A DNA stretch of 64,000 bases. It comes from Chloroflexota bacterium. Lineage in GTDB: Bacteria; Chloroflexota; UBA11872; VXOZ01. Position numbers and translations under genes: made by a program. Under the pieces are notes generated by a model. The model was not told the origin of the DNA, did not search any database, and saw only the letters and a program-made list of their open reading frames with translations. The first letter of the stretch is position 1; the number at the start of each line of letters is the position of its first letter. The DNA is taken from positions 62,001 through 126,000 of the forward strand of contig JAAXIC010000017.1 in assembly GCA_012270555.1 (NCBI GenBank), in the 5' to 3' direction. Shown piece by piece: positions 33,359 through 48,011 of this stretch.

Positions 33359-34555
33359 GTGAAGTACCTTCAGCGCGCCTTAAGCATCCTAGTATTTGCT
33401 GTCCTTGTCCTTGCCGCTCTTTCTCCGGCCCTGAGAGTGCAGGCGGAGGTAACGCTGCCTCACGGTACTGTCGTTTCTCTGCAAGGCACTCCGCACCTAT
33501 GGTTTGTGGATGCAGAAGGCATCCTGCATTGGGGCGGCGACACACGGGCCCTGGCGGGGCGTCACATAGACTGGAACAAGCGGGTTGCAGCCAGTTTAGA
33601 AGAGCTCCAGGCCTTGGATATCGGCGATCCATGGCTTTCCACTGGACTGCTGAAAGATGGCGATCCAATCTATCTGGTTAAGTGGGAAGCGGAGTGGATG
33701 GAACCTCAGTTACTGCACATTCAGTCTTTGAGCGATGTCGAGTTGTTTGGTATAGACAGCAGCAACTATGGGGATTTCGTGCACGACATACCGACATGGG
33801 AAGCCGAATACGGGCTCTCAGTGAGCGATCTTGAGCGGTCTCCGTTGGAACCGGCCACGACGCCCGGTGATTCCACTCCAAGTTCAACCCCAGGAACGCC
33901 ATTGACGAGGGAGGCCGTGCTGCAACGCTTAGCTGCACTGGTCACCGACGACGATGACGACGATGATGACGACGACGCTACCGACACTGCGACTGCCACA
34001 GCTACGGCAACGGGGAGCCAAACCGCCACCGCAACCGCGACGGCGACAGACGACGGCACATCCACTACTCAAACGGCCACGGACGACACACCGGACAACC
34101 AGAATACGCTCACGGCTACAGCCACCGACACTGCCACGGCAACTGGCGATCAAACGGCCACGGCAACGGCGACGGCGACCGACGATGGCTTGTCCGCAAC
34201 TGCCACGGCAACAGACGATACTCCGGTCAATCAAGTCTCGGGCACGGGCACTGCCACAGACACCGCGACCGCTACCGGGACCGGCGACCAAACGGCTACG
34301 GCTACCGCCACAGCGACCGACGACGGCGCATCTGCGACGCAAACGAGCACGGATGACACCCCTGACGCACAGAACGTGCCTACGGCCACTGCCACTGCTA
34401 CCGCAACAGCGACAGCGACGGGCGAGCAAACGGCGACAGATACCGCCACCGCTACAGACGACGGCACGTCAGTGACGGTCACCGCAACCGATCCCACGGA
34501 CAGCACCCCCCTTGACACTGGCTCGGATGAAGATAGCGATGACGATAGCGACTAG
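33359..34555 (+). CDS. Secreted Thr/Ala/Asp repeat protein
   Basis: This 398-residue protein is of unknown function. A Sec signal peptide (about 1-29, cleavage after VQA) is followed by a roughly 150-residue folded region with short motifs such as HLWFVDAEGILHWGG and LLKDGDPIYLVKW. A Ser/Thr/Pro linker, a run of ten Asp (197-206) and about 190 residues of Thr/Ala-rich repeats come next. Four units beginning GSQ/GDQ/GDQ/GEQ at about 219, 263, 309 and 355 (period 44-46) each contain TATATATATDDG and TDDTP-type segments. The C-terminus is acidic, with no membrane anchor or sortase signal. The composition suggests an extracellular, probably calcium-binding or O-glycosylated stalk. Confidence 0.85.
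   Translation: MKYLQRALSILVFAVLVLAALSPALRVQAEVTLPHGTVVSLQGTPHLWFVDAEGILHWGGDTRALAGRHIDWNKRVAASLEELQALDIGDPWLSTGLLKDGDPIYLVKWEAEWMEPQLLHIQSLSDVELFGIDSSNYGDFVHDIPTWEAEYGLSVSDLERSPLEPATTPGDSTPSSTPGTPLTREAVLQRLAALVTDDDDDDDDDDATDTATATATATGSQTATATATATDDGTSTTQTATDDTPDNQNTLTATATDTATATGDQTATATATATDDGLSATATATDDTPVNQVSGTGTATDTATATGTGDQTATATATATDDGASATQTSTDDTPDAQNVPTATATATATATATGEQTATDTATATDDGTSVTVTATDPTDSTPLDTGSDEDSDDDSD
34013..34480 (+). repeat. Coding tandem repeat (four units of about 132-138 bp)
   Basis: Within the secreted protein gene, four imperfect direct repeats of about 132-138 bases encode alternating Thr-Ala stretches with DDG and DDTP-type acidic elements. The triplet-like ACNGCN composition makes the region prone to slippage. 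Confidence 0.75.
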
Positions 34556-35859: not shown

Positions 35860-36651
35860 TCAATGGTGGTCTACGCGAGGCCCGTAGGGTAAGCTGCGTA
35901 GGTCGTCCACGACCTCGATGATGGCTTTGCTCACCGTTTCGAGGATGCGTTCGCCTTTCCAGGCGGCGCCGAGGGTGGGATCACCGCCCGTGCCGTCTTT
36001 TGACATCTTGCTGAGGTGGTCGACGAACTTCACCGGCGAACCGCCCATGAGGTCGCGGTAGTGCCACTTGGTGCGGACACGGTAGTCGGCTTTGGCCTTA
36101 TCCATTTGCACCCGCGCCGGATCGAGGGTGAGGTAGATGGAGGTCTCGAATTCACCGGCGTGGTCCATGCCGCCGGGATACTCGGATTCGCGCCACTCCT
36201 CAACATCCTCTTTCGCTAAATCCCAATATGAGATGAGGGCGCACGCGGCAGTGGAGTGCAACGTGGCGAGGCGGGCGGACACCTGTAGCAGCGGGTCGTT
36301 GGAGGCGTGCCCGTTTACGAAGAGAATGATCGGGAAGCGATGGCGCGCAAAGCTCACGGCGACGTCGTGGCAGTAGTCGATGAAGTGCTGCGCCTGCACG
36401 GAGATGGTGCCGGGAAAGTCCATGTTGTGCTCGTTGAAGCCGTAGTGGATCGGTGGGGCGCAGAGCAGTTTCTCTGGGGCGGCTTGCGCCGCGCGCTCGC
36501 AGACGGCAACCGCCGCCACATTGTCGGTGTCTATCGGCAGGTGCGGGCCGTGTTGCTCGAGCGCCGCCACCGGCAGCAGGATGGCCTTCTTTTCTTTCGC
36601 TGCCTCTCGCACTTCCGGCCAGGTCAGCTTTTCGTAGCGCCATTCCGCCAT
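35860..36651 (-). CDS. Creatininase-family amidohydrolase
   Basis: The 263-residue protein has the creatininase/MftE-type fold. The metal residues are seen in LPVAALEQHGPHLPIDTDN (Glu, His, Asp), in NGHASNDPLL (His) and in MDHAGEFETSIYLTL (Glu). Family members hydrolyse cyclic amides such as creatinine, or act in maturation of peptide-derived cofactors. The true start is the ATG at 36651, 8 bases after GAGG; the long frame extending further left overlaps a real gene on the other strand. It is convergent with the APH-like gene and divergent from the solute-binding protein. Confidence 0.88.
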   Translation of the reverse strand: MAEWRYEKLTWPEVREAAKEKKAILLPVAALEQHGPHLPIDTDNVAAVAVCERAAQAAPEKLLCAPPIHYGFNEHNMDFPGTISVQAQHFIDYCHDVAVSFARHRFPIILFVNGHASNDPLLQVSARLATLHSTAACALISYWDLAKEDVEEWRESEYPGGMDHAGEFETSIYLTLDPARVQMDKAKADYRVRTKWHYRDLMGGSPVKFVDHLSKMSKDGTGGDPTLGAAWKGERILETVSKAIIEVVDDLRSLPYGPRVDHH

Positions 36652-36796
36652 AGATGTATCCTCAATCGCTGTTTGAGACACACTGTTCGCTCTCAGTATA
36701 GAGAAGCTTGGCCGCCAGGGTTGCAGATGGGAATAGAGGTCGGTAGAGTTTAGACGAGAGTGTGTTACGTGTTTCACAAAGGGCAAGGAGCACGCG

Positions 36797-38161
36797 ATGA
36801 GAGATCGTATTCTGCGACGAACCTTTCTCGGCGGCGTTGGCGCTACCGCAGCAGGAGCATTGTTTGTAGCTTGCGGCCAGGCGGCGCCCATGGAAACGGC
36901 AGAGGCGCCCCAGGAAGAAGAGGCGCCGCAAGAAGAGGAAGCACAGCCCGCTGCGGCGGAGGCCGTTGAGCTTGAAGTGTGGACAACCCGGCGCTGGGAC
37001 CTTTCCCAGGGCTTGGGGTTGGAGGTCAAGCAGGAGATCGAGGCCTTGGTGGAAGGTCTCACCGTCAAGGATCTCATTCCGGAAGGCAACCGCTTTACCA
37101 TCTTGATTGCGGCGCAAGCGGCAGGCACGTCGCCGGATATTGGCCAAGTTGGCGTCTGGCAGAACCAGCAGGTGGCGGCCGGCGGCATCGTCGACAGCTT
37201 GGAGAGCTACTACGCCCAGTCTCCGGTTATCAATAAGGACGACATCTGGCCGTCCTTGCGCATCGACATGGACCACAAAGGCCAGGTGTGGAGCATGCCG
37301 TTTGGCCCGGACGTGCGCTTCTTCTACATCCACGACAATCTCTATCTGGACGCGGGCCTTGACCCGGAGAACCCGCCCGTGACGTGGACGGACTTGGAGG
37401 ACGTAATTTCCAAGTCATTCAAGGGCGGCAATACGATTGAGCAGGTGGCGTGGGGGCCGTTGTGGGCCAACCGTCACGTGTGGATGGTGCCGATGTGGCA
37501 GCTCGGCGGTGAGAATATCAACGCCGATGCTACGAAGATCACGCTGAACACCGAGGAAGGCCGCGAGGGCATGGCGTGGCTGAAGAAGGTGCACGACATG
37601 CAGGGCGGCTACGACGCGCTGCAAGAATTCAAGGGCGATGAGAACGCCCGCGCGCACTTCTATGCCAGCCGTCTCGCCAATCTCTATGACACTGGCTCCA
37701 TCCGGTTTGAGAGCATTGCCCAGGAAGCGCCGGACCTTGAGTACCACTGGGGTCACTGGCCCAAGCCGGCGGACGGGTTCAACCGCACGTACGGCGGCTG
37801 CCATACGTGGGTGCTGCCCGTGGGCGCAACCCACAAAGATGTAGCCTGGACGTTCATGGAGCACTTCGGCGATGATAGCGTCAACATCCGCTGGGCCAAG
37901 CACTTCGACCGGCTGCCGATCCGGGTCGACACGTCGTACAGTGAGGCCTACCACGGCGGCGATCCATTCGTCATCCATCAGGTTGACGTCATGGAAGGGC
38001 GTCGTTTTGTGGTCTCGGCCCCCGGCGCCAACGAGATGCTCGGCATCATGAGCGGTGGCGTGCCGGATATGCTTACCGGCAAGACCACCATCGAGGAAGG
38101 CTTGCGCAATACTGAGGCTCAGGCGCAGGCGGTGCTCGACGAGTGGCTGGCACGGGAATAG
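36797..38161 (+). CDS. ABC-transporter solute-binding lipoprotein (extracellular solute-binding family 1-like)
   Basis: The 454-residue product carries a Tat-like signal (RRTFLGGVGATAAGALFVAC) with the lipobox Cys at residue 27. A Glu/Pro/Ala-rich linker (EAPQEEEAPQEEEAQP) of about 25 residues connects to a large substrate-binding domain (VELEVWTTRRWDLSQ onward, SMPFGPDVRFFYIHDN). This is the plan of family 1 sugar-binding proteins. No permease or ATPase genes lie beside it, so it is an orphan here or works with a transporter encoded elsewhere. The ligand is unknown; the context suggests a component taken up for the following DUF3604 block. Confidence 0.87.
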   Translation: MRDRILRRTFLGGVGATAAGALFVACGQAAPMETAEAPQEEEAPQEEEAQPAAAEAVELEVWTTRRWDLSQGLGLEVKQEIEALVEGLTVKDLIPEGNRFTILIAAQAAGTSPDIGQVGVWQNQQVAAGGIVDSLESYYAQSPVINKDDIWPSLRIDMDHKGQVWSMPFGPDVRFFYIHDNLYLDAGLDPENPPVTWTDLEDVISKSFKGGNTIEQVAWGPLWANRHVWMVPMWQLGGENINADATKITLNTEEGREGMAWLKKVHDMQGGYDALQEFKGDENARAHFYASRLANLYDTGSIRFESIAQEAPDLEYHWGHWPKPADGFNRTYGGCHTWVLPVGATHKDVAWTFMEHFGDDSVNIRWAKHFDRLPIRVDTSYSEAYHGGDPFVIHQVDVMEGRRFVVSAPGANEMLGIMSGGVPDMLTGKTTIEEGLRNTEAQAQAVLDEWLARE

Positions 38162-38373
38162 AATCCAGCAATGTGCAGATAGCCCTTGCGGGGTTGAGAA
38201 ACCCAGAACGCTGTTCGAGTATGACGGGTTGCTTGGCCCCACCTGAGCGGGGACAAATCTGTGTGAATATGGGGTGCGAAGTGAGGCATCCAGCGCCGCG
38301 TGCAGCGCGTGCTGGATGCCTCGCCGTTTATATATGGAATTTCCAACAGAGAGAGTGTTCATAAGGTCTTGAC

Positions 38374-39924
38374 GTGAGCAGGCAAGAATTCGATCCGAAC
38401 CTCATCCGTTTGCCGCTGGACTACAAAGGCACGCCGGAACTGGCGGAGATCCGCGTGAATGTGCCCAGCATCGTACCGCCGGATGCGAGCAACGGTGAAT
38501 TCAAGATCGGCCTAGAGCTACGGGACCAATGGGGTTTTCACCTGCCCAAACAGAGTGCCCACTTGGAGTTGTCCATAGAGGGAGCAAACGGTGAGGTCCC
38601 CGCAGAAGTGCCAATGCTGCCGGAGTACGACAGCCACTACGCTGTACGCGGTCACGTTGTGGAGAAAGATCGGGTCTTTCGCGTGCGTGCGCGGGACCGC
38701 GAGACTGGTATCGAGGCCCTCAGCAATCCCGCCTGGGCGCCGGCCTACATGTACGGCGGCGACCACAAGCTGTACTGGGGCGACTTGCACTGCCACCGGT
38801 TGGAAAAACCCAGCCGCAAGCGCAGCGATCCGCTGCTCTGGAGCTACGGGCCCGCGACCGTGGACGAGGTGTACCGCTTTGCGCGGGACGTGGTGCACCT
38901 GGACTTCACGGCGCTCACCGACCATGACTACGCCCTGAGCACTGACGAATGGCGCGAGATTCAGGAGGGAGCGGAGTTCTACAACCAGCCGGAGCGCTTC
39001 GTGACGCTGCTCGGCTACGAGTGGTCGTGGAATCGCGGGCCGGACGCCGACTGCGGCCACCGCAACGTGATTTTCCGCCACGGCGACATGCCGCTCATTT
39101 CCAGTAATTGGAAGGGGTCCAACACGCCGCAGGATCTCTTCAACATCTTTCGCCGCATCTCCCGCACCGGCTGCGACATCCTCTCGATTCCCCATCACCC
39201 GGCGCGTCTGGGGAACCGCATTTGGCACAATTGGGAGTCCATGGACCCGGAATTCGAGCGCCTCATGGAGGTCTATAGCCACTGGGGCAGCAGCGAGCAC
39301 GAGGGGGAGCCGTATGCACTCAAAGCTCGCAACGAGCGCACCCAGTGGGAAGAGCCTTACGCGGAGTACCCACCCTATGAGGCCACCGGCCACTTCCTGC
39401 AGGACGGGCTGCGCCAGGGCTTTCGCTTTGGATTCGTGGGCGGCAGTGAGAGTCACGATGGCCGCGTCACCAGCAGCGTGCAGATCGCCCACCTGCCCAT
39501 CAAATCCACGACATTCAACCACCACGCTGGCATGACGGGCGTTTGGGCGCGCCGCCGCGAGCGGGATGCCGTATTCAGTTCGCTCTGGCAACGCCGCGCC
39601 ATCGGCACGACCGGTGTGCGCATTTATCTCGATTTCGACGTGGACAACCAGCCCATGGGCGAAATCATCAGCGTGCAGTTTCCACCAAAAGAAATGCGTG
39701 TGCGCGTCCACGGTACGGCGCCGCTTGCCAAAGTAGTAGTGGTCAAGAACAATCAGGACTGGCACGTATCGGAGAATCCCGGCTGGGAGTGCGTCCTTTC
39801 GCTGAATGAGATTGAGATGCCACAAGACCGCACAGACTGGTACTACGTGCGCGCAACGCAGGAAGATGGCGAGATGGCATGGTCGAGTCCCATTTGGATC
39901 GAGGACGCCCGCCGTGTCTTCTAG
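38374..39924 (+). CDS. DUF3604 protein with intact metal motifs
   Basis: The 516-residue protein begins with a beta-rich region of about 120 residues. A PHP-like metal-dependent hydrolase domain follows, with WGDLHCH (135-141) and ALTDHDYALS (180-189). Further motifs are LGYEWSW, GHRNVIF, LSIPHHPARLG and GGSESHDGR, then WQRRAIGTTGVRIYL near the C-terminus. It has no signal peptide. The GTG start at 38374 lies downstream of AAGG. DUF3604 proteins are found across marine bacteria; their reaction is not established. The two genes that follow are relatives whose metal site differs. Confidence 0.88.
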   Translation: MSRQEFDPNLIRLPLDYKGTPELAEIRVNVPSIVPPDASNGEFKIGLELRDQWGFHLPKQSAHLELSIEGANGEVPAEVPMLPEYDSHYAVRGHVVEKDRVFRVRARDRETGIEALSNPAWAPAYMYGGDHKLYWGDLHCHRLEKPSRKRSDPLLWSYGPATVDEVYRFARDVVHLDFTALTDHDYALSTDEWREIQEGAEFYNQPERFVTLLGYEWSWNRGPDADCGHRNVIFRHGDMPLISSNWKGSNTPQDLFNIFRRISRTGCDILSIPHHPARLGNRIWHNWESMDPEFERLMEVYSHWGSSEHEGEPYALKARNERTQWEEPYAEYPPYEATGHFLQDGLRQGFRFGFVGGSESHDGRVTSSVQIAHLPIKSTTFNHHAGMTGVWARRRERDAVFSSLWQRRAIGTTGVRIYLDFDVDNQPMGEIISVQFPPKEMRVRVHGTAPLAKVVVVKNNQDWHVSENPGWECVLSLNEIEMPQDRTDWYYVRATQEDGEMAWSSPIWIEDARRVF

Positions 39925-40022
39925 ACGTCCAATGGTTGGGACGTGGGATTGTAACGCGGTACTGTAAATCTGGGTGCCCGCCGCGTGTCATTGCCAGTGG
40001 CTGGGAAAGAGGAGTGCAGCCC

Positions 40023-41846
40023 ATGCTCGTGGAAGAGAGTGAACGGTTCCGGGTACGTGTAGACGGCCTGTCGCGCGTTGCTGAGACGGTCACGCTTGAA
40101 TTGCACTACACACCGCCTGCGGGCGGCCTGCAGACAGATGGGAATCTTTGGTTCTTCTTTGACATCCGGCAATTTGAAACATGGGTGCTGCCCTTGGATT
40201 CGCCGGAAGCGGTTACGGTGCGCGGGCCGGCGGGGTCAACCTGGCAAGCCGAGGCCCTCCTTGGCGGCGGTGTGGTGCGCACGTTCGATATCCACTATCC
40301 GATACCTGAGTTTCTCCACGTGGTGCACGTGAAGTGCGTTGCGGGTGCTTTGGTAGCGAGAGACTGGCTAGCGGTGCAACTGCGCACAGTCCCCGGTGGC
40401 TTCCTGCTGCCTCGCAACGCCATTGATAACTTCCGATTTTGGCTGGTTGAGGACCCTCGTGGAGAGCTTACGTTCTACTTACCGGAACGAGATAAGCACC
40501 ACTACTTTCTGCCGCGCGATGCAGAACTATCATTGCTGGCGAGCAACCCAATCGCGATCGAGGCTGCCGGTCCGGCGGCCCTGCACGTATCCGTGCCCTC
40601 GCACACCACGGGACAGGTGACCGCGCGCGCCGTGGTCACTGATAGATTCGGCAATCCTGTGCGCGATGCCAAAGGAGATGTCACCTTGCGTTCGAGCAGT
40701 GGCACGACAACGGCCGCGCTCAATACGTCTAGCGCCACAGGGACGATTGCCGTAAGGGGGCCTGTGGATAGCGTCACGGCGTCATATCAGGGCATCGAGG
40801 CAAGGAGCAATCCTGTGCGCGTTGCAGCAGAGCCGCCGCCGTACGCACTCTATTGGGGAGACCCTCACGGCATGCTCTTCAACCAACGTCCTATTGTCGA
40901 GCATTTCGCTTGGGGCAAAGACGTGAATCACCTTGACTTTGCCGGAGGCCAGCTATTCTCCTACAGCATTGCCATCAAAGAGGTGTGGGAGGATCTCCAG
41001 GACGCGTGGCAGAAATATGATCTGCCCGGCGAATTTGTGGCGCTGCCTTCAGCGGAGTTTGGGACATTGCCCGACGGCAGTCACCGCCACGGCTTCTTCC
41101 CGGAGATTGCGGGACAGCCGCCGGTTTTCTGTGAAGACCGTCCCGGCGCGCATGACCCCAAGCTCCACGCACGCTATCATCCCGATACCGTCTTTTGCCA
41201 AGACTATCAGGAGTTCTATCGCGAGATGAAGCGCCGCGGCGCCCTAATGCACGGTCACTTTCATACGCACTTCTATGCTGAAGAACACTTGGCGGAGATC
41301 TATCAGAAACAGCGTACCGATGGCGTCGTGGAAGAGGAGAAGATCAACCAACACCTGATGCGCGGCGTGAAGCTGGGCATCGTGGGCGGGAGCGACACCC
41401 ATGACAGCCGGCCTGCCAATCCCTATCCGGAGCCCATCCCGGAGGGTTCCAGCGGACTGACGGGGGTATGGGCGGAGCGGCTGGATAGACCTTCCATCTT
41501 CGACGCGTTCTTCAAGCGGCGCTGCTATGCCACCTCCGGGGTGCGCATCATCGTAGATTTCCGCGTTAACGGCAATTGGATGGGTTCCACAGTGCGTGAC
41601 GATGCCTTCACGTTCACAGCGGAAGTGGTAGGTACGGATGACATCGCGCAGATCGATCTGGTAATAAACGGCGATACGGCCGCGAGTTACACGCCGCTTC
41701 AACGGCACGTACAGATGGAAGATGTGGTATCGCTGCGGTTCTCTCCTGTCAATGCCCACTACTGCTACTTGCGTGTACGCCAGTGTGACGGCAATCGCGC
41801 GTGGACGAGCCCAATTTGGCTTGAAGCAGCGAACCACGCTGTCTAG
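40023..41846 (+). CDS. DUF3604 paralogue with altered metal motif (A)
   Basis: The 607-residue protein has a beta-rich N-terminal half. Part of it resembles a bacterial Ig-like repeat (TGQVTARAVVTDRFGNP, about 197-212). The C-terminal half is a DUF3604 domain, in which WGDLHCH becomes WGDPHGM (278-284) and the TDHD motif is lost (LDFAGGQLFSYS). New His-rich elements appear (HGHFHTHF at 410-417, SHRHGFFP). GGSDTHDSRP and CYATSGVRIIVDF are kept. The start is the ATG at 40023, 9 bases after AGAGGAG; the frame is open further upstream with no support. The next gene is a close copy. Confidence 0.87.
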   Translation: MLVEESERFRVRVDGLSRVAETVTLELHYTPPAGGLQTDGNLWFFFDIRQFETWVLPLDSPEAVTVRGPAGSTWQAEALLGGGVVRTFDIHYPIPEFLHVVHVKCVAGALVARDWLAVQLRTVPGGFLLPRNAIDNFRFWLVEDPRGELTFYLPERDKHHYFLPRDAELSLLASNPIAIEAAGPAALHVSVPSHTTGQVTARAVVTDRFGNPVRDAKGDVTLRSSSGTTTAALNTSSATGTIAVRGPVDSVTASYQGIEARSNPVRVAAEPPPYALYWGDPHGMLFNQRPIVEHFAWGKDVNHLDFAGGQLFSYSIAIKEVWEDLQDAWQKYDLPGEFVALPSAEFGTLPDGSHRHGFFPEIAGQPPVFCEDRPGAHDPKLHARYHPDTVFCQDYQEFYREMKRRGALMHGHFHTHFYAEEHLAEIYQKQRTDGVVEEEKINQHLMRGVKLGIVGGSDTHDSRPANPYPEPIPEGSSGLTGVWAERLDRPSIFDAFFKRRCYATSGVRIIVDFRVNGNWMGSTVRDDAFTFTAEVVGTDDIAQIDLVINGDTAASYTPLQRHVQMEDVVSLRFSPVNAHYCYLRVRQCDGNRAWTSPIWLEAANHAV

Positions 41847-41964
41847 ATTCACGCGTCAGGTCCGTGGAGCAGACACAAGAGCGCAAACGCCTTCATCGCA
41901 TTGGTGGCTTAGTCGTACACGAATGTGACAACTGTTTGCAATCAGACGTTAAGTCGGTCTGTCT

Positions 41965-41972
41965 GCTATGAT
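41965..41972 (+). promoter_or_regulatory. Possible extended -10 promoter upstream of DUF3604 paralogue B
   Basis: TGCTATGAT forms an extended -10 element about 65-70 bases before the ATG of the second duplicated DUF3604 gene. No good -35 lies at the right distance. It is suggestive only and would mean that the two duplicates are transcribed separately. Confidence 0.3.
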
Positions 41973-42042
41973 ACGATACCGTCAAGCTGTGGCGTTTAGT
42001 TTTGGGCTATATAACCGCTATGACGAAAGGGTGCGATGAGCC

Positions 42043-43854
42043 ATGTCTGCAAATGCCGGTGGAAGATTTCACGTCAGCGTAGAAGGGCCGCTGAGAGTTG
42101 CAGAGACGGTGGCGCTAACGTTGCACTACTCGCCGCCGGCGGGCGGGCTCCAGACCGGCGGCAATCTCTGGGTCTTCTACGACATCCGGCAGTTTGGCGA
42201 TCGTCAACATATGTACGGGGCAGATGGCGTTGGTGTGAGCGGGCCCGCCGGAACAGCCTGGGAAGCCCGGGCGCTGATGGACGGCCGCCAGGTGCGTACG
42301 TTCGATATCCATCCCCCCGCGCCTGAATTCCTCCACGCAGTGCATGTGCAATGTGTGAGCGGCAGCATAGCGGAAGGTGAACGCGTTGCGATTGAACTGC
42401 GGACTGCTCCCGACGGCTTTCTGCTGCCCGTGAACGCCATCGATGCCTTTCGCTTTTGGTTGGTGGAAGACGCTGCGGGCAAACTCAGCTTCTATCATCC
42501 GGAGCGAGACAAGTACCACTATTTCCTGCCGCGTGAGGCTGAACTCTCGGTCTTGGAAAGCAACGCGCTTACGATAACGGCTGCCGAACCGTCTGTGCTG
42601 CAAGTAACCACGCCCTCACACGCATCGGGACAGGCGGCAACACGGGTGGTGGTCACCGATCGGTTCGGCAATCCCGTGCACGATGCAAAGGGTAACGTGT
42701 CTTTACGAACCGGCAGCGGCGAGATTTCTGTCGCGCTCAACTCGTACAGCACGGAGGGAACGATGCCGCTGCAAGGGTCAACCGCTAGCGTGACGGCTAC
42801 GTATCAGGGCATCGAGGCAGAGAGTAACCCGGTGCGGGTAGATGCAGATACTTCCCCATTTACGCTCTATTGGGGAGACCCCCACGGCATGCTCTTCAAC
42901 CAACGTCCCATCGTCGAGCACTTCGCCTGGGGCAAAGACGTGAACGCCCTGGACTTTGCCGGCGGCCAACTTTTTTCATACAGCATTTGCATTGGCGAAA
43001 TCTGGGACGAGTTGCAGGAGGCGTGGGCAAAGTATGACCTGCCGGGCGAGTTCGTCGCTTTGCCCTCGGCGGAGTTTGCCACGGGCCCCGATGGCAGCCA
43101 CCGCCACGGCTTCTTTCCGGCGCCGGAGGGCCAGCCGCCGGTCTTTTGTGAAGACCGTCCTGCCGCTAACGATCCCAAGCTTCATGCCCGGTATCACCCA
43201 GATACCGTCTTCTGTCGCGACTATCAGGAGTTCTACCGCGAGATGAAGCGCCGGGGCGCGCTCATCCACGGCCACTTCCATACGCACTTCTACGTGCAGG
43301 AACACCTGGCGGAGATCTACCAAAAGCAGCAGACCGACGGGGTTACTGAGGAAGAAAAAATCAACCAGTTCTTGATGCGGGGCGCGAAGCTCGGCATCGT
43401 CAGCGGCAGCGATACCCATGACAACCGGCCCGCCAATCCCTACAAAGAGCCGGGGCCGTCCGGCCCCGCCGGACTGACGGGCGTGTGGGCGGAACGGCTC
43501 GACCGTCCGTCGATCTTCGAGGCGTTGTTCAACCGGCGCTGCTACGCTACCACCGGCGTGCGCATCATCGTGGACTTCCGCGTGAACGGCGCGTGGGTGG
43601 GGTCCACAGTACGGGCAGACCGGTTCGCGTTTGCGGCGGACGTGGTCGGCACGGCGGACATCGCACAGATCGATCTAGTGGTCAATGGCGACACGGCCAG
43701 TAGCTACACACCCAAGCGACAACACGTTCAGTTGGCAGACGACGTGCCCCTGCGGTTCTCTCCGGTTGGCGCCAATTACTGCTACCTGCGCATACGCCAG
43801 GAGGATGGTAACCGCGCGTGGACGAGCCCGATCTGGTTGGAGCCGCTGCTTTAG
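42043..43854 (+). CDS. DUF3604 paralogue with altered metal motif (B)
   Basis: This 603-residue protein is a close tandem paralogue of the 40023-41846 gene. It shares the beta-rich N-terminal half and the motifs WGDPHGM (about 277-283), SHRHGFFP, HGHFHTHF, GGAKLGIVSGSDTHD-type and CYATTGVRIIVDF. Both copies have lost the second His of the HxH pair and the TDHD motif, so the altered site predates the duplication. The ATG at 42043 follows AAAGGG. Upstream lies a 196-base gap with a possible promoter. Transcription from the first copy may also continue through it. Confidence 0.87.
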   Translation: MSANAGGRFHVSVEGPLRVAETVALTLHYSPPAGGLQTGGNLWVFYDIRQFGDRQHMYGADGVGVSGPAGTAWEARALMDGRQVRTFDIHPPAPEFLHAVHVQCVSGSIAEGERVAIELRTAPDGFLLPVNAIDAFRFWLVEDAAGKLSFYHPERDKYHYFLPREAELSVLESNALTITAAEPSVLQVTTPSHASGQAATRVVVTDRFGNPVHDAKGNVSLRTGSGEISVALNSYSTEGTMPLQGSTASVTATYQGIEAESNPVRVDADTSPFTLYWGDPHGMLFNQRPIVEHFAWGKDVNALDFAGGQLFSYSICIGEIWDELQEAWAKYDLPGEFVALPSAEFATGPDGSHRHGFFPAPEGQPPVFCEDRPAANDPKLHARYHPDTVFCRDYQEFYREMKRRGALIHGHFHTHFYVQEHLAEIYQKQQTDGVTEEEKINQFLMRGAKLGIVSGSDTHDNRPANPYKEPGPSGPAGLTGVWAERLDRPSIFEALFNRRCYATTGVRIIVDFRVNGAWVGSTVRADRFAFAADVVGTADIAQIDLVVNGDTASSYTPKRQHVQLADDVPLRFSPVGANYCYLRIRQEDGNRAWTSPIWLEPLL

Positions 43855-43865
43855 GCGAACCTCTA

Positions 43866-43922
43866 GTTTGCCGTTCGTGCTGAGGGCTGCGCGTAGCCCC
43901 TGTCGAAGCATGAATGGCAAAC
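43866..43922. repeat. Dispersed palindromic repeat, CCGTTCGTG...CATGAA type (copy 2, long form)
   Basis: GTTTGCCGTTCGTGC pairs with GCATGAATGGCAAAC. Between them is an extra small hairpin GGGCT...AGCCC. This 57-base copy is longer than those at 7099, 63159, 63224 and 63932. It lies 12 bases after the DUF3604 stop and may double as a terminator. Confidence 0.8.
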
Positions 43923-44059
43923 TGTTCGAGGACTTAAGAGTGTTGGCTGGTCACCTCGAATTGCGTGACTGCTCCAAGCTCGCGACGGCAGTTCGTGCGT
44001 GTAGGTGGCTATCCTGAAGCGCGACAAGGTATTTCTTGTAGAGAGAGGGAGACACAGGC

Positions 44060-45169
44060 ATGGCTGACTTCGCACGCATAACGCAATCCATGTCCGAGCA
44101 GCGGCTCGAAGCCCTGATCACCCTCGGCATGCGCAATTGCGCCTATCTGGCCGGGACCATCAGCGAGGGTCCGTGGCTCAACGAACCGCAGGGCCTTGCG
44201 CCCTGGATGGCATGTCTGATTCCTCCCGATCGATCGTTTGCATTCGGTGGTATTCCCAAAGAAGCTGGCATACCGGTGGCGGGTTTCGCGCCCGACCACT
44301 CGCGGGCGGCGCGTCTAATAGAGCTTGCAAAACAGATGCGCCAGCGGAGCTTGGCACGGGCGCGCATCGGTTTGGACATGGACTTTGCGTCGGCAAGCGA
44401 CCTGGAGCGGCTGCAAGAGCTTTTGCCGGAGGCGACGTTTGTTTCCGCCGACCTGCTGCTTGCAAAAGCGCGGGCGTCCAAGACGCCGCAGGAATTAAAC
44501 TGGCTCCGCAAGGCGATTGCGGCTTCTGAAGCCGGCTACCGAGAAATGCTCAAGGAAGTCAAGGTAGGCATCTCGTTCCAAGACCTCGTCACGGTGTGGG
44601 CGAAAGCCGTGTTGGACAATGGCGCCTTGCCGATCAACACGTCGCCGGTGTCGTGGATGCTGCCCCACGGCGGCACAAGCCTGCGCGACCAGCCCAATGC
44701 GGCGGTCATTCGCGGACCTGGCATAGTGGAAGCTGGGCTTGTGTACCGCGTCGATCTTGCCGCCATATCGGGTGGCTACTTTTCTGATCAGAAGTTCAAC
44801 TTCAGCGTGGGCACGCCACGCAAAGAGAGCCTAGCCGTATGGCAGGAACACCGGGAGCGACAGCTCTTCATGGAGGAGTTTGTACGTCCAGGCAAGACCA
44901 AACGTGAGGTGTTCGAGGCGTGCCAGCGTGAATTTAAGGATACCGATGAGTACGCCTGGTGGATTCACGGCGTTGGTATGGACAAGCACGAGGAACCGTT
45001 GATCGGCAGCCTATTGCCCGCGGCCGTCGACGTCAGGCCGGAAATCACGTTTGCGGAAGGCAATGTGGTCTCGCTAGAGTCCTCGTGGCTTGAGGAGGAC
45101 ATGTACGTGCTTAGGCAAGATGGGTTTGAAAGGCTGGGGACGATACCGCAAGAAGTGGCGATTGTGTGA
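44060..45169 (+). CDS. M24-family metallopeptidase-like protein (Xaa-Pro peptidase/creatinase fold)
   Basis: The 369-residue protein has the pita-bread fold. The N-terminal creatinase-like domain occupies about 1-150. In the C-terminal domain the metal ligands of aminopeptidase P are visible: two Asp in VDLAAISGGYFSDQKF, His in WIHGVGMDKHEEP and two Glu in the AEGNVVSLESSWLEEDMY region. Creatinase itself lacks metal, so retention of the ligands favours a metallopeptidase. The ATG follows GAGAGGGAG. Context: downstream of the DUF3604 pair and upstream of a subtilase-like gene. The substrate, an Xaa-Pro peptide or other amide, is open. Confidence 0.85.
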   Translation: MADFARITQSMSEQRLEALITLGMRNCAYLAGTISEGPWLNEPQGLAPWMACLIPPDRSFAFGGIPKEAGIPVAGFAPDHSRAARLIELAKQMRQRSLARARIGLDMDFASASDLERLQELLPEATFVSADLLLAKARASKTPQELNWLRKAIAASEAGYREMLKEVKVGISFQDLVTVWAKAVLDNGALPINTSPVSWMLPHGGTSLRDQPNAAVIRGPGIVEAGLVYRVDLAAISGGYFSDQKFNFSVGTPRKESLAVWQEHRERQLFMEEFVRPGKTKREVFEACQREFKDTDEYAWWIHGVGMDKHEEPLIGSLLPAAVDVRPEITFAEGNVVSLESSWLEEDMYVLRQDGFERLGTIPQEVAIV

Positions 45170-45180
45170 GAATGAAGACT

Positions 45181-45223
45181 GGATTCCTCGGTTTCCCAAC
45201 CGCGCTTTCGCCGGAATGACGGA
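45181..45223. repeat. Dispersed CCGGCGAAA-type repeat (copy 1)
   Basis: The stretch GGATTCCTCG...GCTTTCGCCGGAATGACGGA is the reverse-orientation relative of the element at 46729-46782. It matches a widespread intergenic repeat whose core is TCATTCCGGCGAAAGC. Confidence 0.6.
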
Positions 45224-45336
45224 GGGAGGTTGTCACTCCTCGGGCTAGTGTCGCCCTTACGAGAGGAAGCGATTTCACCAAAGTTCGCCAATACTATAGA
45301 TCAACCAGATAATAAGAGCTACGAAAGGGAAAACCT

Positions 45337-46677
45337 ATGGCCATTGCAGAGAAGCAGAGCGGCGTGCTGCCGGAGGGTGTGCGTGAGCCCTATGATTGGG
45401 CGCTGGATCAAATGCGGATACCGGAAGCCCATGCCATTACGCAAGGCAGTCCCGATGTCATTGTGGCGGTGATCGATCTCGGCTACCGCTTCCATCCCGA
45501 CCATGAGGGCCATCTATGGGTTAACCCGCGTCCCACGCGGGGTGACATCCATGGCTGGGACTTCGCGGAGGAAGACGCCACGCTTGAGTACGAGGGGATG
45601 CGCTCAGATGCCACCTACCAGCGCGGGCACCACGCGTTCGTCGTCGGGGAAGTGGCGGTAACGGCGCCCAAGTGTCCCATCATGGTCCTGCGTGTGGGCT
45701 ACGAGCCCCACCATCAGAAGAGCTGGCCGCGCGCCATACGCTACGCGGTCGACCACGGCGCTAAGGTGCTGATCATGCCCCACGGGTATATCACGCTGGA
45801 CCATACCGACGGCGTGCCATTGTTCTATAAGGGTACGGACTTCAATTATCCCTACGACAACATCGGCTTGATCGAGGCCATGGACTACGCCTACCAGTCG
45901 GGTTCCCTGATCTTCAAGGGGACGGCGGACAATCGCGGGCGGCGGGTGGCCACCGTGAATGCCGGCCTGGATAGTGTCTTCGCTGTCGGCTCGACGAACC
46001 GGCATGGCCGGGCGGCGAACATTGCGGCGTCGGCGGACTATGCGGAAGCGGCCACGCCCGGCGGCGAACGCCATACGGATGACCCGACTGATTCGATTTG
46101 GGGCACCGGCGGCGACCACGACTACATTCCTTTTCAGGGCGGATGCATGGCGTCCGCCTTTGGCGGCGGCGTCGCGGCGCTGGCGTTTTCCCAGTACCCA
46201 CACCTCTCAAATCGCGAAATCCGGGAGATTCTGCGCAATACGTCCCAGGGAACCGGCTGGGATCCATTGCTCGGCCACGGTATTTTCGATGCCTACCGGG
46301 CGGTTTCGCTGAAGCCGGAGGAACTTTCGCCTGGCCTACGCATCGATCGGGAAGCTTCGCAGGTGCGGCACGAAAACGGACAGCTAGTGGCGGAGATTGT
46401 TGTTGAGAACACCGGCGTCTACGACGTTTCCCGCATGCTAACGGTTGCCTTCAATGGCGATCCGAAAACTGCCCCCGATTCCGGTGGTACCCGGGAGGAA
46501 GCGAACATCCTTATCCGACGGCAAATCGGACATTGCATTGCGGTGGCGACGGGTCTCGAGCGGGTGCGCGTGTCCTTGGAGTTGGACGGTGATGCACAAT
46601 CCGATGAGGTCTGGGTGCAGGTCAACCCGCTGGACCTCGGCATGGCGGGGGTCTACGATTCAGCACGGATATTCTAA
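45337..46677 (+). CDS. Subtilisin-like protease fold (S8) with Cys in place of the catalytic Ser
   Basis: The 446-residue protein has a subtilase-like core. It shows Asp47 in VIVAVIDLGYRFHPDH, His98 in YQRGHHAFVVGEVA and Asn199 in KGTADNRGRR. The Ser motif GTSMAxP is replaced by GGCMASAFGGG with Cys270. A jelly-roll-like C-terminal domain (about 320-446) follows. There is no signal peptide, so the protein is cytoplasmic or exported by an unusual route. A Ser to Cys substitution usually cripples subtilases, although a cysteine-dependent activity is possible. The gene is downstream of the M24 gene and may share its transcript (gap 167 bases). Confidence 0.85.
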   Translation: MAIAEKQSGVLPEGVREPYDWALDQMRIPEAHAITQGSPDVIVAVIDLGYRFHPDHEGHLWVNPRPTRGDIHGWDFAEEDATLEYEGMRSDATYQRGHHAFVVGEVAVTAPKCPIMVLRVGYEPHHQKSWPRAIRYAVDHGAKVLIMPHGYITLDHTDGVPLFYKGTDFNYPYDNIGLIEAMDYAYQSGSLIFKGTADNRGRRVATVNAGLDSVFAVGSTNRHGRAANIAASADYAEAATPGGERHTDDPTDSIWGTGGDHDYIPFQGGCMASAFGGGVAALAFSQYPHLSNREIREILRNTSQGTGWDPLLGHGIFDAYRAVSLKPEELSPGLRIDREASQVRHENGQLVAEIVVENTGVYDVSRMLTVAFNGDPKTAPDSGGTREEANILIRRQIGHCIAVATGLERVRVSLELDGDAQSDEVWVQVNPLDLGMAGVYDSARIF

Positions 46678-46728
46678 GTCTGTGAGAGGCAAAGCACACT
46701 TGCTCTCGTCAGCGAATTGGCGACTTTC

Positions 46729-46782
46729 CGTCACTCCGGCGAAAAGCCTGCCCCGTACTCGATACGGGGCCGGAGTCCAGGG
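46729..46782. repeat. Dispersed CCGGCGAAA-type repeat with internal hairpin (copy 2)
   Basis: CGTCACTCCGGCGAAAAGCC is followed by the hairpin GCCCCGTA-CTCGA-TACGGGGC (46750-46770) and then CCGGAGTCCAGGG. The outer ends are partly complementary. A related sequence in the other orientation lies at 45181-45223. The core resembles the TCATTCCGGCGAAAGC family found between genes in many bacteria. Confidence 0.75.
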
Positions 46783-46847
46783 AGCACACACGGAGGCCAG
46801 TCCCGCATCGAGCAAATGTTCGGCATTGCGGTACGTAGTGGCGGCCA

Positions 46848-46868
46848 GCGCAGGTTGCAAACCTGCGC
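46848..46868. repeat. Dispersed palindrome GCGCAGGTT-N3-AACCTGCGC (copy 2)
   Basis: This is the same 9+9 base palindrome as at 15149 and 56966, here with GCA at the centre and the shared 3' flank TACCGGAG. Confidence 0.8.
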
Positions 46869-46988
46869 TACCGGAGTGATTACGTCTAGAACTGTCTATT
46901 GCACGGCATCGGCAGAGAAGCTTTATAGGGCTCCCACTTGCGGCTTGCTGATTAGGTGACCCGTAGTTCGTGGGGTGAATGGGAACAT

Positions 46989-48011
46989 ATGCGTATCACA
47001 TCCGTAGAGGTAGTCCCGTGGAAAGACGACGCCTCGTTCGTCTACTCAGTGGTCTTTGACGAAGGAACCGTCGATTGCCTGGCAAATGCCTTCCCGCTTG
47101 GGAAGCAATATGACATTCCCGGTGACGTCGCGGTTGTAGCCGGACAGCTGGGCGAGAAGCGCCACGTCGAGCGCAGTTCGCTCAATGACTACTTCCACAT
47201 GGGGCCGGAGCACTTGAAGTTTCTCCTCTCCCAGGGCTGGAGCGTGAGCAATCACAGCTATTCGCATCCGCCTCTGCGGGATCCGAGCAGCATTGACTAC
47301 GAACAAGAGATCGTGGAGTCCTACCACGTGCTGGAGCGCGCGCTCGGGCAGCCGGCGCCGGTGTTCTCCTCATGGAATAGCTTTGAGGTATATGACACGG
47401 TGCGGGCATGGGTGGAGCGCACGCCGGGCTATCTTGCTCTGACACGCGCGTCCAACGATGCCGAGCACATCAATGAGCCGGACTTCGACCCCTTCAGCAT
47501 TTGGCGCAACCGTCTTTCTGAGGATGACGAGATAGAATTTCTGCCGCCGTGGCTCTCGCGCGCCGGGTTCGAGCCGGCGCGCGTGCACGGCAAGTGGTTG
47601 GTCGACGTCACGCACCTGGTTATGTACAAGACGCCGCAGGGGCACAAGTGTATTTCGCCTTATGCGTTGGAAGGTCGATTCGACCAGATGCGCACGCACT
47701 TTGGCGACAGCATGTGGGCCGCTAATCCCGATGACGTGGTGCGCTACCGGTACCTGCGCCGTCATTGCTTGCCCACCATAGAGCAGGAATCAGATTCTCG
47801 CGCCACCATCACGTTGAGATTCCCAGAGTTGCCGCCGCAGATTGAGGAAGGCGAGTTGACGTTCCTTGTCTCGCTTGCGGATGACCATGGCCCGGTGAAA
47901 GCGAGCGGGCCTAATGGCACCATTGATGTCGTGCTGGCTGGAGAGCGGCGGCTGCGGTTTACATCCCGGGTGTCTGACGAAACACAGATTTTACTTACGA
48001 GCGGCAGTTAG
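46989..48011 (+). CDS. Polysaccharide deacetylase (NodB)-like protein
   Basis: The 340-residue protein has NodB-like features. VVFDEGTVD (21-29) matches the catalytic/metal Asp motif (normally FDDG), and NHSYSHP (88-94) supplies the HxxxH metal histidines. The N-terminal half should form the deformed barrel. The C-terminal half (VDVTHLVMYKT, RATITLRFPELPPQI) is beta-rich. The start ATG at 46989 has GGGAAC just before it; the frame opens 33 bases earlier. The substitution of Glu for the second Asp may affect metal binding. Substrate and cellular site are unclear, as there is no signal peptide. Confidence 0.72.
   Translation: MRITSVEVVPWKDDASFVYSVVFDEGTVDCLANAFPLGKQYDIPGDVAVVAGQLGEKRHVERSSLNDYFHMGPEHLKFLLSQGWSVSNHSYSHPPLRDPSSIDYEQEIVESYHVLERALGQPAPVFSSWNSFEVYDTVRAWVERTPGYLALTRASNDAEHINEPDFDPFSIWRNRLSEDDEIEFLPPWLSRAGFEPARVHGKWLVDVTHLVMYKTPQGHKCISPYALEGRFDQMRTHFGDSMWAANPDDVVRYRYLRRHCLPTIEQESDSRATITLRFPELPPQIEEGELTFLVSLADDHGPVKASGPNGTIDVVLAGERRLRFTSRVSDETQILLTSGS

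Follow-up and report, generated by a model that had tools for sequence, protein, structure and literature searches.

The locus studied here raises the question of whether two adjacent and closely similar genes have departed from the metal chemistry of the family to which their upstream neighbour belongs, as a sequence-only reading of this DNA had proposed. The window, i.e. the whole 64,000-nucleotide stretch of a Chloroflexota genome that was analysed, carries on its forward strand gene A (38374..39924), gene B (40023..41846) and gene C (42043..43854, with its motif I at 42871-42891). The two latter open reading frames lie where that reading had placed them, gene B starting at the ATG at 40023 with the ribosome-binding-like AAAGAGGAG just ahead, and their identity of 72% bears out their description as close duplicates. 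All three products pass the curated cut-off of Pfam DUF3604 (PF12228; 20.4 bits), with 79.8 bits for A, 50.3 for B and 45.2 for C, and all three miss that of the CehA/McbA profile NF038032 (80 bits), with 68.0, 55.8 and 60.8 bits, respectively. The NF038032 match of gene A spans almost the entire profile, and those of B and C are significant over their C-terminal half (4.8e-15 and 1.5e-16). No signal peptide was seen in B or C on inspection by eye.

The metal site was read by alignment, using the nine-ligand PHP scheme and the metal order given in PMC3666897. The full set (H, H, D/H, H, E, H, C/H, D/N, H) is not found in B and C: ligand positions 1, 5, 6, 7, 8 and 9 are kept, position 2 is a Met, position 4, the motif II His, is lost, and position 3 is not assignable, which makes them variant PHP domains, defined by a PHP fold whose ligand set is incomplete. 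In gene B, motif I reads WGDPHGM (residues 278-284, 40854..40874), with H282 kept and M284 in place of the second His, and an invariant FSY stretch (residues 312-314, 40956..40964) stands where the TDH of motif II would be expected. Further on are SHRHGFFP (residues 353-360, 41079..41102), in which H354 is ligand position 6, HGHFHTHF (residues 410-417, 41250..41273), in which H412 is position 7 and H414 is invariant, and SDTH (residues 457-460, 41391..41402), which provides positions 8 and 9. The variant metal site of gene C is identical. The presence of WGDPHGM and the absence of TDH are thus as first described; HGHFHTHF and SHRHGFFP are also present, but they are not gains, as they align with IPHHPAR and GHRNV of gene A. 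The difference between HGHFHTHF and IPHHPAR is limited to extra His residues around H412, of which the subfamily conserves H414 alone. The objection that the three genes might share identical metal ligands was checked by the same alignment, and A differs from B and C at positions 2 and 4.

Gene A, which is DUF3604/CehA-McbA-like by Pfam, NF038032 profile and alignment, had been taken as canonical. It does keep HxH and TDH, but it is not fully canonical, since Glu replaces Asp at ligand position 8 (GGSESH), a replacement found in gene A alone among the 19 DUF3604 genes carried by this genome. Four others of these genes show a loss resembling that of B and C, which is therefore a theme of the expansion. 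Both motif II residues are missing in six of the 19, at three places of the tree, a distribution that does not strictly exclude a single origin; on this count, a TDH loss peculiar to B and C was ruled out. The gene B model has a beta-rich N-terminal region, about 275 residues long, as had been suggested, but such a length is ordinary in this genome, 13 of the 19 genes having at least 275 residues ahead of motif I. With 19 copies in one genome and several fixed, divergent ligand sets, this apparently sponge-associated genus offers a naturally mutated series of PHP metal centres.

In a 13-row alignment of B-type proteins, the six retained ligands and M284 are invariant in all covering rows (13 of 13 for M284), and H414 is invariant in its 11 covering rows. 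Among 11 full-core homologues, all six retained ligand positions are invariant against a background of 89 invariant columns out of 329 in the core, which would be expected by chance with a probability of about 0.0003. Five comparisons of B or C of the window with orthologues gave dN/dS values of about 0.10-0.17; a further comparison, of the lipoprotein (see below) with L061, was out of frame and is disregarded. Because neither the retained ligands nor the Met vary in the homologues that cover them and dN/dS is this low, B and C are, judged from their sequences, working genes under purifying selection; that they could be pseudogenes is ruled out by their open frames and by dN/dS. One relative (G016, L062) is broken.

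The PHP fold, a distorted alpha/beta barrel, is indicated by two matches to the same structure. A profile of 16 DUF3604 proteins of this genome finds PHP structure 3e38 with an E-value of 6e-5, and the alignment places HxH, motif II E/H, E, GHxN, HPG and SDxH in order. The gene B model matches 3e38 moderately, over residues 274-504 (rmsd 3.9, 163 aligned), with a Z of 7.9 that falls below the tool's caution line of 8. That model is itself of moderate quality (pLDDT 72, pTM 0.50, two motif loops being below pLDDT 50) and gene A, with a 6-row alignment, did not fold (pLDDT 46.5); a combined A and B alignment, in which the HH motif was mis-registered, was left out of folding. When the B model was compared with the PDB by Foldseek, most of the 50 matches listed were beta-sandwich domains, Ig-like ones among them, and the PHP match emerged at a second look. 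The Ig-like matches lie within residues 5-270, the best being over 180-270. Single-sequence searches for solved relatives gave none for A and, for B, only an irrelevant match (E 1.8).

B and C fall in a separate deep clade with a support of 100/100, composed of Chloroflexota rows and of two MAGs labelled Bacillota and Minisyncoccota. B-type genes were detected in 8 of 400 sampled Chloroflexota genomes and in three MAGs with other labels. The search alignments included rows from L064, L066 and L067 (A3), L066 (A4) and L067 (A6, A7), so that matches in these genomes arise partly by construction; the scan of genome contigs and the neighbourhood comparison are independent finds, as is a second A-type gene of G400. 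The contig scan used two short motifs only and is by itself no proof of rarity, and copy numbers from cross-genome scoring are lower bounds, at most about four candidates being scored per genome. Neither A-type nor B-type genes were found in viral contigs. The possibility that the signature is a common variant of known function was checked: the signature is rare among the genomes sampled, and the one paper found to contain the term DUF3604 concerns, going by its title, Chlamydia transposon mutants. Taken together, the clade, the fixed Met284 and the six fixed ligands uphold, at the level of sequence, the proposed subfamily with an altered metal site: B and C are a deep DUF3604 subfamily of their own with fixed altered metal-binding residues.

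The neighbourhood was assigned by Pfam and synteny. Gene A is preceded by a solute-binding lipoprotein gene (36797..38161, SBP_bac_8/SBP_bac_1, with a twin-Arg-like signal then a Cys) and, on the reverse strand, by a divergent creatininase-family amidohydrolase gene (35860..36660), a conserved neighbour. Gene C is followed, on the forward strand, by genes for an M24/creatinase-prolidase-like hydrolase (44060..45169), also a conserved neighbour, an S8 subtilase-like protein with a Cys (C270) at the catalytic Ser (45337..46677) and a NodB/polysaccharide-deacetylase-like protein with an FDEG motif (46956..48011). The co-directional genes that run from the lipoprotein to the NodB-like protein are separated by gaps of 98-278 bases, which leaves an operon uncertain. 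The block from the lipoprotein through A, B/C, M24 and S8 to NodB is present in G001-G004, with the lipoprotein at 95% identity and in an unchanged position. The expected co-occurrence with a canonical DUF3604 gene and a lipoprotein therefore holds in all four of the other genomes of the genus with a contig that spans this region, but it is not universal beyond the genus, since A-type genes are missing from three B-bearing genomes and weakly matched in a fourth, one distant MAG (L066) carrying B and A on one contig. Another distant MAG (L067) carries S8, B and NodB on one contig. At the thresholds used, neither a close A-type gene nor a Cys-subtilase was found in two B-bearing Chloroflexota genomes of another family and in one further MAG. 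Weaker NodB-like matches occur in three B-bearing genomes, on contigs other than that of the B-type gene; the NodB-like alignment was made without L060, which has a stop within the coordinates used.

As B and C belong to a small cluster of genes, and as pieces of this cluster are found again in unrelated bacteria, the cluster genes probably form an uncharacterised breakdown pathway. We give even chances to the reading that B and C are cytoplasmic PHP-fold metallohydrolases with a reduced metal centre, which would act in this catabolic module on a non-phosphate ester, amide or carbamate. In the probable assignment of ligands to three metals, the inner metal would keep all its ligands (E345, H354, H412) and the middle metal three of the four expected (H282, E345, D458), Met284 replacing the fourth. 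The outer metal would be lost, with H460 as its only remaining ligand, and the vacated charge could be filled by the invariant R289 or K299. Because one or two metals would be present instead of three, the centre would most likely activate water for attack on an organic ester, amide or carbamate, by analogy with CehA/McbA, rather than on a phosphate ester. In this scheme, the compound would be supplied by the lipoprotein and then dismantled by A, B and C together with the M24, Cys-subtilase and NodB-like proteins. That the cluster has spread between phyla, its enzymes having jointly acquired unusual catalytic residues and together attacking a class of compound left untouched by ordinary PHP phosphoesterases and subtilases, is unlikely; the residues concerned are the PHP Met with no outer metal in B and C, C270 for Ser in the subtilase and FDEG for FDDG in the NodB-like protein. 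The A, B, Cys-subtilase and NodB grouping provides a short, testable gene set for finding a natural substrate.

B and C could alternatively have lost catalysis altogether and be PHP scaffolds serving as partner or regulatory subunits, for instance of gene A, which they adjoin in five genus genomes (the window and G001-G004). According to PMC3666897, position 4 is one of those most often lost in variant PHP domains, and the structural role of such a domain in E. coli Pol III could be a precedent. Decay would nevertheless be expected to hit the six other ligands, which are fixed in all covering rows well above the core background, and B-type genes occur without a close A-type gene in four of the five B-bearing genomes searched outside the genus, so that we consider these pseudoenzymes somewhat unlikely.

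A centre rebuilt with Met284, H414 or other residues in place of the lost ligands, with metals and chemistry as in A and a related substrate, appears rather unlikely: Met can coordinate soft metals and the invariance of M284 and H414 would fit, but no residue suited to replace motif II is found, the invariant stretch at that place being FSY. Very unlikely is a shift from hydrolysis to another reaction, such as a lyase or oxygenase step at a His-rich site with a single metal; the conserved H412, H414, H354, H282 and E345 cluster could hold one metal, but no sequence or structure match to such enzymes was seen, the strong family matches being DUF3604 and CehA/McbA and the others listed weak.

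The reading of B and C as metallohydrolases with a reduced centre can be set against known relatives. No function is known for the DUF3604 family, and the natural substrates of CehA and McbA, which were discovered through pesticide breakdown, are largely unknown. B and C have in common with their DUF3604 (PF12228) paralogues the GGSDxH motif and an AWSSPIW-like C-terminal end, but differ by the Met for the second motif I His and by the absence of motif II. They resemble 3e38 (Bacteroides, BVU_3505) in fold and ligand order, as judged from B, but 3e38 has both HxH and EH, and the match excludes the Ig-like N-terminal part of B. The carbaryl/carbofuran hydrolases CehA/McbA (NF038032) are matched significantly by the C-terminal half of B and C; CehA, however, depends on His313, His315, His453 and His495 (PMC8292978), and thus needs both His of what is presumably motif I, where B and C retain one. 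A plant carbamate, physostigmine, is a CehA substrate according to a review. Finally, B and C share the PHP fold, incomplete ligands and the loss of position 4 with the variant PHP domains that PMC3666897 describes in bacterial replicative polymerases, but the E. coli Pol III domain lacks several further positions and does not bind metal, whereas B and C, which are not polymerase parts, invariantly keep positions 1 and 5-9.

Genes A (38374-39924), B (40023-41846) and C (42043-43854), adjacent on the plus strand, all exceed the Pfam cut-off for DUF3604, and all match the CehA/McbA metallohydrolase model below its cut-off. A profile built from 16 of the 19 DUF3604 proteins of this genome retrieves a single solved structure, the PHP-like 3e38, with an E-value of 6e-5 and with the motifs in register. 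The structural comparison proposed in the sequence-only reading could be obtained in part: the prediction for gene A did not fold, whereas B gave a model (13 alignment rows, pLDDT 72.0, pTM 0.50) in which an Ig-like N-terminal part precedes a region, residues 274-504, that matches 3e38 with a Z of 7.9 and an rmsd of 3.9 over 163 residues.

A PHP domain is described as binding three metals through a set of nine residues (H H D/H H E H C/H D/N H; PMC3666897). The source genome (G000; the contigs behind L009-L021 and the window) carries, in 3.18 Mb, 19 DUF3604 genes with varied ligand sets. All 19 keep the Glu as well as the first His of both motif I and PHH, and 18 keep the last His. Six genes have another residue in place of the second motif I His, with Met in B and C, Gln in three and Gly in one; both residues of motif II (the TDH region) are gone in B, C, C15, C52, C37 and C17_53853 (6/19). 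The partial retention of motif I and the loss of TDH, which had been proposed for B and C, are thus confirmed, but the supposedly gained SHRHGFFP and HGHFHTHF motifs are counterparts of GHRNV and IPHHP, and hence no gains. Motif II loss falls in three places on the DUF3604 tree, a single origin being, from this tree, still conceivable. As such losses recur among the 19 paralogues, B and C represent one of several variant lines and not a lone oddity. Gene A has Glu for Asp in its SDxH motif; this SESH form is found in 6/6 A-type rows and, among the 19 genes, in gene A alone.

The three genes belong to a same-strand run of seven (36797-48011), arranged as solute-binding lipoprotein, A, B, C, M24-family hydrolase, S8 subtilase-like and NodB-like genes; the window itself spans 62001-126000 of contig 17 in a genome that is 97% complete. 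A divergent creatininase-family gene lies upstream and a convergent enolase-superfamily gene downstream; no ABC permease was found among the 19 window proteins scanned with Pfam, a subset of the window genes. In four other genomes of the genus (G001-G004, 4/4 with a covering contig), creatininase, lipoprotein, A, B/C-type, M24, S8 and NodB-like genes form one common block. When the window (40023-43854) is set against L052-L055, paralogue order is A-B-C in the window versus A-C-B in G001-G003, and G004 has C-type alone. In the core tree, window B clusters with C and not with its orthologue in locus L059 (97/87), hinting at gene conversion. The window also encodes a predicted secreted protein (33359-34555), with an Asp run and then long Thr-Ala-rich low-complexity repeats.

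The neighbouring families are mostly C-N or ester hydrolases (creatininase, M24, NodB-like, subtilase-like, and a CN-hydrolase in L066), which suggests an amide-, carbamate- or ester-rich compound as substrate. The subtilase-like protein (45337-46677) has C270 (GGCMAS) at the place of the catalytic Ser, in 5/5 aligned homologues including that of L067, and keeps D47, H99 and N199. A subtilase that naturally relies on cysteine would be out of the ordinary, and none was seen among the papers listed in a literature search. The NodB-like protein (46956-48011) keeps NHSxSH, and FDEG or YDEG stands in 4/4 aligned homologues at the place of FDDG, the usual NodB-type motif.

At E <= 1e-40, B-type genes are found in 8 of 400 Chloroflexota genomes, six of six of the genus and two of another family of the same class. 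A motif-limited scan of the genome_contigs collection (84,980 species) gave nine loci, of which three (L064, L066 and L067) are in MAGs not labelled Chloroflexota. A-type genes (E <= 1e-60) occur in 7/400, the six B-bearers of the genus and one weaker match. The proposed co-occurrence with a canonical DUF3604 gene and a lipoprotein is observed in G001-G004 (4/4); among the five other B-bearing genomes, however, A-type is absent from three, weak (7e-31) in one and represented by two strong genes in one. The Cys-subtilase profile (E <= 1e-40) detects 5/400 Chloroflexota genomes, all of the genus, and, among the five other B-bearing genomes, that of L067 alone. PF12228 (E <= 1e-5) is present in 28/301 Chloroflexota genomes, a first look giving 39-46 candidates in five sampled genus members versus at most 16 in the other genomes listed; the DUF3604 expansion is similar across the whole genus. 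The bin prefix jk18x7 of the genus contig L060 also occurs in an Ircinia sponge microbiome study (PMC9531527), so that a sponge-associated life of the genus is likely.

In L066, a CN-hydrolase gene and then further ORFs separate a B-type gene (core identity 40-42%) from an A-type gene (49%) that comes after it, and another contig of this genome has a second A-type gene (55%). The L067 contig carries Cys-subtilase (53%), URO-D-like, B-type (41%), second URO-D-like, DegT aminotransferase and NodB-like (35%) genes. The genome of L067 and L103 is labelled Candidatus Paceibacterota and measures 3.4 Mb, which is large for this group, and the label may be wrong. L066 and L067 are two cross-lineage recurrences of cluster parts, and these two contigs make a functional link between the cluster genes likely.

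In the B-type alignment (13 rows, 11 spanning the whole core), H282, M284, E345, H354, H412, H414, D458 and H460 show no variation in any row that covers them, against a background of 89 invariant columns out of 329 in the core, and H410 and H416 are variable. In five pairings of window B or C with an orthologue, dN is 0.105-0.157 and dS 0.91-1.16, a ratio of about 0.09-0.17; B and C are, by sequence comparison, maintained genes. A stop interrupts the B-type gene of compared genome G016 (L062:8001-9881), the copy of its sister genome G020 being intact. That B and C are PHP scaffolds devoid of catalysis (pseudoenzymes) is regarded as a less likely alternative.

The most likely reading is that B and C are hydrolases that remain active although their metal centre is reduced, and that they act on a non-phosphate bond within a catabolic module that would be supplied by the lipoprotein. 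The open-access papers listed for DUF3604 and CehA/PHP include none on their subfamily; the single DUF3604 entry deals, to go by its title, with Chlamydia transposon mutants. Positions 5, 6 and 7 presumably bind the inner metal, 1, 2, 5 and 8 the middle one and 3, 4 and 9 the outer one, and with this assignment the inner metal should be retained in B/C and the outer one lost. A metal centre rebuilt by replacement ligands is a less probable alternative. In the work on Pol III PHP domains, position 9, at the outer metal, and position 1, at the middle metal, are occupied by Arg, inner-metal absence is linked to missing positions 5 and 7, and lost PHP ligands are often replaced by Arg (PMC3666897). 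In the reduced centre that we favour for B/C, R289 or K299, both of them invariant there, could similarly stand in for lost ligands.
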